A stretch of 33,128 bases of DNA from Microcystis aeruginosa Ma_MB_S_20031200_S102 (GTDB taxonomy: Bacteria; Cyanobacteriota; Cyanobacteriia; Cyanobacteriales; Microcystaceae), in assembly GCA_007095845.1 (NCBI GenBank), contig SFBI01000048.1, positions 1-33,128 on the forward strand, written 5' to 3'. This document shows, piece after piece, positions 12,671-15,515 of the stretch. The notes under the pieces are model-generated. The model was not told where the DNA came from. It did not search any database and saw only the letters and a program-made list of their open reading frames with translations. Position 1 is the stretch's first letter. Every line of letters begins with the position of its first letter. The position numbers were made by a program, and so were the translations under genes.

Positions 12671-12895
12671 TTATGGAGATTTCCACTCTCCTTCTGGGAT
12701 CATGGCTGTAATCATGATGTTACGCAATGTTCCAGTAGGTAAATCTCTCCCTTGATGGTAAGGTACGATAACTTGAGTATCTTGATCCCTACCACGCCAT
12801 TTTCTATGACTACCCTTCTGAGAGATCAGTTCAAAGTTATACTTGCGTAATATGCGCTCAACCTCGTCAGCATTCATTCTCCTGAGTCGAGTCAT
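12671..12895 (-). CDS. hicA: HicA-family toxin
   Basis: 74 residues forming the small dsRBD-like HicA (YcfA) fold, with the catalytic histidine in QKGSHRKWRG (His30) and the typical VPYHQGRDLPTGTLRNIM end. HicA toxins are ribosome-independent mRNA interferases. The ATG overlaps the hicB stop codon by 4 bp (ATGA), so production is coupled to the antitoxin. Complete and apparently functional. Confidence 0.92.
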   Translation of the reverse strand: MTRLRRMNADEVERILRKYNFELISQKGSHRKWRGRDQDTQVIVPYHQGRDLPTGTLRNIMITAMIPEGEWKSP

Positions 12896-13095
12896 CCCAC
12901 CATAACCTCACGGATTACTGCTCCTGGTAGAAGGTCGATAGCATCAGGTTGTAAATAAAGCTCGATCGCTTCGCGTATATTATTGAGAGCTTCCTCTTCT
13001 GTAATACCGGCAGATGTGCATCCGGGCAGTTCCGGACACCAAATTGCCCATTCGTTTGTATCGGGATCGGGTTCAAGTATCACTCGCCATTTCAT
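12892..13095 (-). CDS. hicB: HicB-family antitoxin (short form)
   Basis: 67 residues with the partial RNase H fold of HicB: EWAIWCPELPGCTSAGITEEEALNNIREAIELYL is the family hallmark (residues about 15-48). It has no room for a DNA-binding C-terminus, so autoregulation by this protein alone is doubtful. The antitoxin gene comes first, then hicA. AAGGA precedes the ATG by about 11 nt. HicB binds and neutralises HicA. Confidence 0.9.
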   Translation of the reverse strand: MKWRVILEPDPDTNEWAIWCPELPGCTSAGITEEEALNNIREAIELYLQPDAIDLLPGAVIREVMVG

Positions 13096-13319: not shown

Positions 13320-14012
13320 TTATTGCGCTAATATTCTGACTAGCTCTGCTTTCTTCATCTTGCTTAAACCAACGATTCCCTTTTCTTTGGCTAGAGTCTT
13401 TAATTCAGAAACAGTCTTGAGTTTGAGAGTTTCTTCTGAAAATTCCTCAATCACTGCATCTTGTTGAGATTGAGGAGTGAGATAAAAGACGGTTTTGAGT
13501 AAATCTAATCCCTTCCCTTTTGTAATTCCACACTTGAGGGCAACAATTGAGTCTAAACTCTTCCAGAATTGACGGGGAGCCTCATCAATCCTAGCAGTAG
13601 CCGTAGCTAATTTAACTGTTTTTATTGGGCTATTCGGTTGTTCAATCAAGAACTGTAAAGCAGATTTAATTTCTTCTCTTGAAGCTGTTGACAGATTTAG
13701 TTTTGGGGTTTCTTCTCTTGCCAAAGCTCTGGATATATTCCTAGCATTTTCTGTTCCATCGGCAATAATACACCAAATTCTTTCTAGTCCAGCCCTTTCA
13801 GCCACAGCATAAACAAATGAGTTGCCGATAACTTCATAGCGATCCTCTGATAGTTCTTTGACGATTACAGGCAGCCAGTTGCGTCCACCTGTCTGCTGTA
13901 ATAGTTTAGCAGTAACTTCAATTAAAAAACTATCAGCATCGGTTCCATTGGTAATTTCTATTTCATCTAGGTATAGGTACTTTAAAGTACCAATATCGGT
14001 ATATTCCATCAT
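13320..14012 (-). CDS. ParB-like protein with C-terminal Rho_N-type domain
   Basis: 230 residues. The N-terminal two thirds resembles a ParB/sulfiredoxin-like domain: a start segment that names position-setting residues (YLYLDEIEI), then LPVIVKELSEDRYEVIGNSFVYAVAERAG, the usual parameter-and-name layout of ParB-like folds. The last 35 residues (about 195-229; TVSELKTLAKEKGIVGLSKMKKAEL) form a Rho_N/SAP-like helical nucleic-acid-binding domain. No HTH domain of canonical chromosomal ParB is seen. It is translationally coupled (ATGA, 4-bp overlap) to the ParA-type gene upstream, so the two should work together. A second ATG at 14009 is an equally good start. Confidence 0.65.
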   Translation of the reverse strand: MMEYTDIGTLKYLYLDEIEITNGTDADSFLIEVTAKLLQQTGGRNWLPVIVKELSEDRYEVIGNSFVYAVAERAGLERIWCIIADGTENARNISRALAREETPKLNLSTASREEIKSALQFLIEQPNSPIKTVKLATATARIDEAPRQFWKSLDSIVALKCGITKGKGLDLLKTVFYLTPQSQQDAVIEEFSEETLKLKTVSELKTLAKEKGIVGLSKMKKAELVRILAQ

Positions 14013-15343
14013 TGTAAAAAATACTCCTTTGCTAAGTCTTTGTAGTAGTCATAAGCGGAACGATTTTTATAAACGGCTGGCACGCGAGCGAAAGCAGCAC
14101 TGGCTATAATAGCGTATTCTGGCAGGTGATGAATATGTAAATTTTTACTGGCATTAGTGTATTTGGGATAAAAATAGGGTGTAAGGGTTTTGTCATTTTT
14201 TAGTATTTGATAAATTTCTTTTTGGGCAAGTTCTAACTGTGGTTGAGTAATCTTCTCGCCGTTGAAAAAAATTGGTAAGGCTATGGGAGTCCCATCTTTT
14301 TTTGATTTTTGCATTTCCGGCAGAAACTCCTTGATGGCAGTGGCTGCATTATTAAGGGAGAATGAATTGTTATGTTTTGTGGGTAAGAGGACAACATCGG
14401 CAGCATAAACAGCCAGCCGGCTAGTAAATCGCCAATTGGGAGCGGCATCTATAAAGATGTAATCATATTCATATCTAGCTAAGTCTAATTTTCTATGGAG
14501 AGTGAATATTTTCATTTGAGAATTATACTGAAAGTCCGGATAGTCTGCCATTTTAGGATCAGCAGGAACAACGTCGAAGGTAATTTGTCGTTTTGGATTC
14601 TTAAAAGTATAGGGAATAATCACTGATTTTAGATCAATATTACGGTCAGTTAAAGCCTTTTCTAGTAGGCCATCTTCTGGGTTTATATTTAGGATAGATT
14701 TAGTTAAATCTCGTTGATTAAAATCAAAGTCTAAAACTAGAACTTTTTTCCCTAAAAAAGCAAGAATAGCCGCAAGATTTACGGTTGTGGTGGTTTTGCC
14801 TACACCGCCTTTATTATTGTAAACAGTAACCGTTAATGCTTTGGGAGTATTGTCAATTTTTGTCTTGATCCGAGCTACAGTCTCATCAATGTTCTCAGGA
14901 GTTATTGCTATGCAAGTAGTGGCAGGAAAAATGATTTTACCATGTTTTCTAAATAACTGGATGTGTGAACCGTTAGTGATAATTCCCCATTGGGCTGCTT
15001 GACAGTTATTCCCTAATAACTGACGCTTTAACTGATTGACAGTTGTCTTATAACCTGGACTATTTTCAGTTAAGTTAGTATCTCTACCCTTTAACTCTAT
15101 CAGCAGAAAAGGATTACTCTTTGTCTGCAAAAAAATATCGTTTGCTAGGTTTCTTCGAGTGGCAAAGTCGGTAATCCCACCGCCTCCCGTGTCTTACTGT
15201 GGGATTATCTCCGTGGTTGAAAATCCTAAATATGATATCAGGTAAGGTGCAAAGTTGGTGCTAACAATAGCTTCCGACGCATCTTGAGGCAAATGCTGAA
15301 GATAAGATTTGAGACTTTTTACTTTGGGGGTGTTATCTTTCAT
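14009..15343 (-). pseudogene. PD-(D/E)XK (HsdR_N-like)-ParA ATPase fusion, interrupted by an in-frame stop
   Basis: A single frame runs from the ATG at 15343 to 14009 (444 codons plus stop), broken once by TAA at codon 50 (15194-15196). Before the stop: MKDNTPKVKSLKSYLQHLPQ onward, helical. After it, GGGGITDFATRRN (Asp59) and LLIELKGRD (Glu83, Lys85) form a PD-(D/E)XK active site as in HsdR N-termini. From about residue 170 a ParA/Soj ATPase follows: YNNKGGVGKTTTT (deviant Walker A, about 178-185), DFDFNQRD, then the ADVVLLP region. The remaining downstream frame can start only at weak codons such as TTG at 15130, which lies after Asp59. Hence the nuclease part is probably dead and the ATPase may survive. 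A sequencing error is possible. Confidence 0.75.
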
Positions 15344-15397: not shown

Positions 15398-15515
15398 ATA
15401 CTAAATCCAGTTATTAAAAACTGATTATTTATTCCCCGTCTTGCCTTTTGCATGAGTAGAAAACGGGTTTCTCCGAGAAACCCGTTTTCTGTGGGTTACT
15501 CAACGGATTTAGTAT
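15398..15515. mobile_element. 118-bp MITE
   Basis: Terminal inverted repeats CTAAATCC / GGATTTAG are flanked by TA on both sides, as expected for insertion by an IS630/Tc1-mariner-type transposase. The centre is a near-perfect palindrome, AGAAAACGGGTTTCTC followed by its complement (about 15458-15490). A second copy of equal length lies at 19377-19494 in the opposite orientation. It sits 55 bp before the ParA-fusion start and 31 bp before the GAF gene. Confidence 0.85.

Follow-up and report, generated by a model that had tools for sequence, protein, structure and literature searches.

In ParABS systems (Soj/Spo0J and the plasmid types) the gene for an ATPase with a deviant Walker A motif is followed, in an overlapping or abutting operon, by that for a ParB/Srx-fold protein. 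The cyanobacterial gene pair considered here has the same layout, and a profile of its second product matches the solved structures of Noc (the best, at 4.4e-14), ParB and Spo0J. However, here ParA bears an N-terminal nuclease domain of the HsdR_N type, the partner is without GERR and often has a Rho_N, SAP or helix-hairpin-helix (HhH) tail, no parS-like site is recognised and the pair is not origin-linked. The nuclease domain resembles the N-terminal domain of HsdR: both are of the PD-(D/E)XK type, belong to the HSDR_N families and have D, ExK and QxxxY-like motifs. Whereas the motor in HsdR is a helicase, here the nuclease is fused to ParA, and the paired gene is ParB-like rather than HsdM or HsdS. 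GmrSD and ParB-HNH proteins also couple a ParB/Srx fold to a nuclease, but in the available sections of their descriptions (PMC4619093; PMC12839542) it is HNH on ParB, whereas here it is PD-(D/E)XK on ParA. PDC-M28B, a PADLOC candidate defence protein, has a ParA-type domain, though only that part aligns, with the nuclease and the partner unmatched. No description of an HsdR_N–ParA fusion was recognised in the literature, most subscription papers being outside the search, and to that extent the original prediction of an undescribed module stands.

The window (the whole stretch of DNA that was analysed) is 33,128 nucleotides long and is one entire contig of a 4.57-Mb Microcystis genome. The features that matter here are the following.

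13320..14012, minus strand: partner gene, 230 aa, with a 4 bp overlap with the fusion
13329..13427, minus strand: Rho_N/SAP-like tail of the partner (Pfam)
13743..13991, minus strand: ParB/Srx-like N domain of the partner; GERR arginine pair absent; the weak Pfam match is to residues 48–90
14009..15343, minus strand: nuclease–ParA fusion frame, 444 codons plus stop, with an in-frame TAA at codon 50
14012..14836, minus strand: ParA ATPase domain, residues 170–444, with deviant Walker A K178–K183
14489..14713, minus strand: fast-evolving ParA segment, residues 211–285
14939..15286, minus strand: putative HsdR_N-type PD-(D/E)XK domain, about residues 20–135, with D59, E83 and K85
15194..15196, minus strand: in-frame TAA interrupting the window copy, preceding the D59, E83 and K85 codons

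That one frame (minus strand, 15343–14009) joins nuclease and ParA, as had been predicted, proved correct, and the positions that had been given for Asp59, Glu83, Lys85 and the deviant Walker A (K178-GGVGK-183) hold. The predicted 4-bp overlap with the gene for a 230-aa partner (14012–13320) is likewise real. In Pfam the ParA part matches AAA_31 at 1.8e-29, above the cut-off, and the N-terminal part matches HSDR_N_2 at 0.0019, under its cut-off. A QxxxY-like motif, a feature of RecB/HsdR nucleases, is at residues 104–108 of the nuclease domain, and in the window copy reads QxxxQ. As the catalytic codons are after the TAA, and the first later start listed after it (TTG at 15130) is beyond D59, the window copy is probably nuclease-dead.

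Conservation was assessed with 117 full-length matches, reduced to 84 distinct fusions, all of which have the N-terminal part by selection. Within this set E24 and E83 are kept in 84 and D59 and K85 in 83; ParA residues K178, K183, D207 and D299 are kept in 84 of 84. The QxxxY motif is less uniform (Q104 in 56 of 84 and Y108 in 70). Without 12 near-copies, 72 N domains were scanned at E 0.01; 58 match HSDR_N_2 (best 3.5e-9) and 35 match HSDR_N. The Pfam support for the nuclease domain is collective, since in single scans of four representative fusions the HSDR_N families fall under their curated cut-offs and one fusion is without a match. When two N domains were each compared alone with plasmids, proteins annotated as HsdR N-terminal made up 10 of 11 records for one and 6 of 6 for the other. 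The N-terminal profile has no significant match among solved structures (best E 0.34), and it is from profiles and motifs that a nuclease fold is predicted.

Directly downstream of the fusion, on the same strand, is an open reading frame of at least 120 aa in 80 of the 84, its overlap most often being 4 or 1 bp; for the other four, by-eye inspection of the downstream sequence shows none. The expectation that homologues keep the neighbour is upheld in nearly all of them. When 88 partners were scanned at E 0.01 (some of them beside ParA-only or broken copies), ParB_N was matched by 62, Rho_N by 33, SAP by 10 and HhH by a few. The window partner matches Rho_N at 2.6e-6, above the cut-off, and ParB_N at 0.0074, under its cut-off; together with the 62 of 88 relatives this supports the ParB-like and Rho_N domains that had been proposed for it. 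(In its available part, a survey of the ParB fold, PMC12704722, employs Pfam gathering cut-offs, below which the window partner lies.) Certain partners (L046/L056, L049/L057 and L051/L058) match residues 102–229 of the window partner twice and so have a duplicated middle domain. ParB uses the arginine pair of GERR for CTP binding. The first of these arginines is in 2 of the 88 partners and the second in 0, as against 13 of 14 each for canonical ParB. The partner is predicted to have the ParB fold and, since the GERR arginines are essentially gone, the usual CTP switch has probably not been kept.

The pair is common and widespread in cyanobacteria, though unnamed. The fusion profile is matched at 1e-30 by 116 of 386 cyanobacterial genomes, ParA-only matches included, and a hand count among the matches listed gives at least 74 with a match spanning nuclease and ParA, a few of them with a stop. 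Among 80 of 524 genome loci, and the plasmid and phage matches listed, no fusions outside cyanobacteria were seen; the non-cyanobacterial matches there cover ParA. Two proteobacterial plasmid matches that begin earlier, from Massilia and Azospirillum, were discounted as fusions, since the open frame of each ends 14 codons ahead of the annotated start and the N terminus, judged by eye, does not resemble HsdR. Divergent pairs occur in picocyanobacterial genomes (L105 8926–11305, a Prochlorococcus record; L227 9169–11537; L228 9321–11695), those of L105 and L227 being near DnaB-like or AAA_25 genes, possibly in mobile islands.

The ParA phylogeny has fusions in every group, namely clade A (with the window), clade B, clade C and the outlying groups. 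The fusion is present in 10 of the 12 genomes compared in the window's genus, as 9 intact copies and the window copy. Thus 9 of the 11 other genomes have the intact 444-codon fusion and then the partner; the two remaining are without a full copy, and one retains only part of the partner. The locus itself is shared. Five of six genus genomes compared with the window carry the pair with flanking genes matching on both sides, and in the sixth a partner remnant is left, where the flanking genes match on one side and the other side holds a fragment. A HicA/HicB toxin–antitoxin pair (12671–13095) adjoins the module in the window and is found in one (L179) of six relatives' loci.

Clade B is a paralogue found in 12 of 12 genomes of the window's genus. 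Nuclease-less members are scattered at several places inside this clade, L222, L223, L231 and L232 having a ParA of 285 aa and a ParB-like partner, with the nuclease domain absent. The N-terminal part, whose absence from homologues had been named as a check, is thus missing from a few clade-B relatives; as these keep the partner, the ParA–partner pair can have some role without cutting. Separate nuclease and ParA genes (L217, L219 13086–15152 and L220) look like broken fusions, and were rejected as stable two-gene forms. In L200, L201, L202, L204 and L220 type B is near a separate gene for a canonical ParA of 294 aa.

The paralogous operon shows matched variation in ParA and partner in two genera, its nuclease domain being little changed. 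For type B of the window's genus the variable tracts are ParA codons 211 to about 375 and partner codons 1–90. They sort together into two classes across 11 of 11 genomes, and a twelfth genome is, by eye, distinct in both genes. Between the classes pS is 0.44–0.78 and within them 0.01–0.13 (ParA codons 211–360 and partner codons 1–90), with intermediate values in the edge window, codons 361–390 (0.26 versus 0.19). There is no between-class excess in the nuclease domain, where pS is 0.04–0.19 both ways, or in ParA 391–449, which is between the two variable tracts. Linked neighbours are expected to share ancestry. However, a single linked block would bring synonymous differences mid-way too. Residues 40–85 of Pseudomonas ParA are those with the dimer and ParB contacts (PMC4219104). 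With the Walker A motif as reference point, the equivalent region would be in and just before the exchanged tract. The partner tail has a second polymorphism, at codons 211–252 (L197, L198, L199 and L313–L319), unlinked to the first; pS there is 0.37–0.54, alike within and between the two classes.

Of 53 genomes searched in a second genus, 39 had a match; 30 loci were fetched and 29 operons were usable. Mean identity is 0.88 in the nuclease region, 0.66 in the middle of ParA, 0.60 in the ParA C-terminal part and 0.60 in the partner N domain. Across the 29 operons the middle of ParA correlates with the partner N domain at 0.88, and the nuclease with the partner N domain at 0.21. Given the nuclease, the partial correlation of the former pair is still 0.88, a value reached in 0 of 2000 permutations; the ParA C-terminal part also follows the block and, given it, the partial correlation is 0.49. 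Exceptions occur. The partner N identity is up to 0.96 among 225 pairs with alike nuclease and unlike mid-ParA, and down to 0.59 among 40 pairs with alike mid-ParA. As pS climbs from nuclease to ParA (0.09 in codons 1–40, 0.09–0.29 in codons 1–120 and 0.5–0.6 in ParA), the conservation of the nuclease partly reflects recent shared ancestry or recombination and not constraint alone. That recognition parts vary between related species, and the cutting part little, suggests control of foreign DNA over ordinary segregation.

For type A, dN/dS is 0.66 for the fusion (9 intact copies) and 0.12 for the partner (10 copies), with 0.01–0.37 for nine flanking genes (3 to 9 copies each). The ratios of amino-acid to silent changes that segregate are 125:66 in the fusion and 18:26 in the partner; for flanking genes they are 31:90 in metG, 37:71 in NDH-2 and 24:38 in a plsC-like gene. 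By window, rates are low over the catalytic parts and near 1 in ParA 211–285, whose equivalent in the type B paralogue is within the exchanged allele tract. The variable windows were picked after the data had been viewed, so the Fisher p of 0.019 for them versus the rest of the gene is optimistic. Behind the raised dN/dS is diversifying selection or else a relaxation of constraint. Preservation of the catalytic motifs speaks against simple decay, and the broken (1 of 10 with a stop) or missing (two genomes) copies speak for some decay.

An association with known defence systems was sought with PADLOC, and four fusions and four partners gave no whole-system match. In three of the four fusions PDC-M28B is matched, by the ParA part alone (3e-10), and the four partners match nothing; the nuclease domain of one picocyanobacterial fusion matches mad2 at 6.2e-7. 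Among 123 neighbours of 15 type A loci there are one MTase_II, one REase_II, one type IV enzyme and scattered others (from the best 25 of 114 matching families, without a control set). For B and C loci, 123 of 144 neighbours (14 of 16 loci) were scanned, again with the best 25 of 44 matching families listed and without a control set. Among these listed matches few are to specific defence models and no consistent set of defence genes beside the pair was seen, so they give no support to location in defence islands.

dnaN serves as an origin marker. For 41 pairs in 32 genomes, on contigs of at least 1.7 Mb (2 of 34 genomes were dropped for lack of length information), the mean distance from it is 0.233 of the circle, 0.25 being expected (KS p 0.23), with 6 of the 41 within 0.05; these distances do not support an origin-linked role in chromosome partition. 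Some chromosomes hold two pairs. Most of the protein is held by 5 of 14 matching plasmid records, three from one Nostoc strain, whose plasmids with the pair also carry other ParA genes, and two from Pseudanabaena, in the 12.6-kb plasmid ABRG53g of which the fusion is the only ParA found. Among the best 80 loci of virus contigs, one matches the whole fusion and has the partner. It is 58 kb long (possibly a fragment; L233 10001–12024), its intact fusion is the only ParA found, and it has genes for a BRO antirepressor and an IrrE-type repressor, possibly being a cyanobacterial phage-plasmid. In the ParA tree plasmid copies nest among genome copies. The prediction had raised plasmids and defence islands as possible locations; plasmid records exist, if few, and a consistent defence neighbourhood does not appear among the matches listed.

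Among 300-base flanks, 4% of the 75 upstream stretches and 13.5% of the 74 downstream ones hold palindromes with arms of at least 9, compared with 0.8% of 745 shuffled stretches. Read by eye, the 15 longest on each side show no shared sequence, and none was recognised as parS-like. Upstream of the operon in the window is a 118-base element (15398–15515) with inverted repeats at its ends (15398–15417 and 15496–15515) and a perfect 33-base palindrome as its core (15458–15490). With up to 3 mismatches allowed, this palindrome is found at 70 sites genome-wide, and two of these lie in the window's contig. Being dispersed and between inverted repeats, it was discarded as parS and looks like a MITE or REP-type repeat.

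Tentatively, and at nearly an even chance, we see in the pair a two-gene DNA-interference module built from ParA–ParB parts. The ParB-like partner would bind target DNA via its tail (Rho_N, SAP or helix-hairpin-helix) while its N domain engages ParA, and the ATP-bound ParA dimer would join two N-terminal nuclease domains on the target, which they would then cut. Dimerisation on DNA, cutting, target and benefit are what we infer from the parts; the benefit would come from telling DNA that is its own or resident apart from DNA that is foreign or competing, such as that of plasmids and phages. Exchange of ParA–partner alleles in matched fashion with a nuclease that is little changed is what would be expected of self/non-self discrimination. 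Kept catalytic residues, a ParA motor, a ParB-fold adaptor and co-inherited alleles favour interference, as do the raised dN/dS of the type A fusion and the missing origin linkage. The presence of the fusion as sole ParA on ABRG53g and the virus contig, which a partition gene would also show, counts against it, as do the nuclease-less clade-B relatives that keep the partner, the imperfect allele match in the second genus and the lack of consistent defence-gene neighbours among the matches listed; the raised dN/dS of type A may be partly relaxed constraint, and plasmid partition genes may diversify specificity too. Of the three options in the original prediction, standard segregation of chromosomes is disfavoured by the missing origin linkage, the lack of a recognised parS-like site and the loss of the CTP-binding arginines, and interference with plasmids or phages appears to fit the allele pattern best.

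The main rival is an accessory partition or replicon-stabilising system, in which ParA and partner position DNA and HsdR_N either stands in for the N-terminal DNA-binding domain that type Ia ParA has or serves to resolve joined copies. It is considered rather unlikely. Its sole-ParA occurrences (ABRG53g and the 58-kb virus contig with the BRO antirepressor), the pair on three Nostoc plasmids, the nuclease-less pairs, the kept core ATPase residues and the excess of long flank palindromes over shuffled flanks speak for it, but the 41 pairs are not near dnaN, some chromosomes hold two, the longest palindromes vary by eye from locus to locus, 0 of 88 partners have the GERR pair, the Nostoc plasmids have other ParA genes and a catalytic triad so strictly kept is unneeded for binding. 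On certain plasmids or phage-plasmids the pair may serve in partition, and a partition origin or continuing role may be compatible with interference.

A selfish or incompatibility module, in which the pair secures its own replicon or locus by cutting rival replicons with a non-matching partner or site, would make the alleles compatibility groups. This would account for the matched ParA and partner classes with a little-changed nuclease, for the plasmid, virus-contig and picocyanobacterial occurrences and for the nesting of plasmid copies among genome copies. We consider it improbable; the same chromosomal locus is occupied in the window and five compared genomes of its genus, so such a module has not been moving recently there. 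Least probable, and only slightly credible, is that the nuclease fold binds DNA without cutting it and that the pair serves to organise the chromosome or control genes. No activity is known for the fusion and several clade-B members are without the domain, but each of D, E and K is retained in 83 or 84 of the 84, and binding alone is not expected to hold all three. 

Returning to interference, the most probable target of the module, with its co-inherited ParA and partner alleles, is DNA that is foreign or competing. It is conceivable, at somewhat below an even chance, that the module stands for a class of prokaryotic interference systems set apart by a nuclease borne by a ParA motor and not a helicase or SMC protein, with swappable specificity given by a ParB-fold partner without the CTP arginines, the nuclease staying near-constant as alleles are traded.

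If so, machinery for moving DNA would have been turned to cutting it, with recognition exchanged in the manner of restriction specificity, and a common unnamed gene pair of cyanobacteria would have a testable function. For cyanobacterial genetics, the pair could have an influence on how plasmids become established and on sensitivity to phages. The matched classes of alleles that occur in nature are also a route to mapping ParA–ParB specificity.
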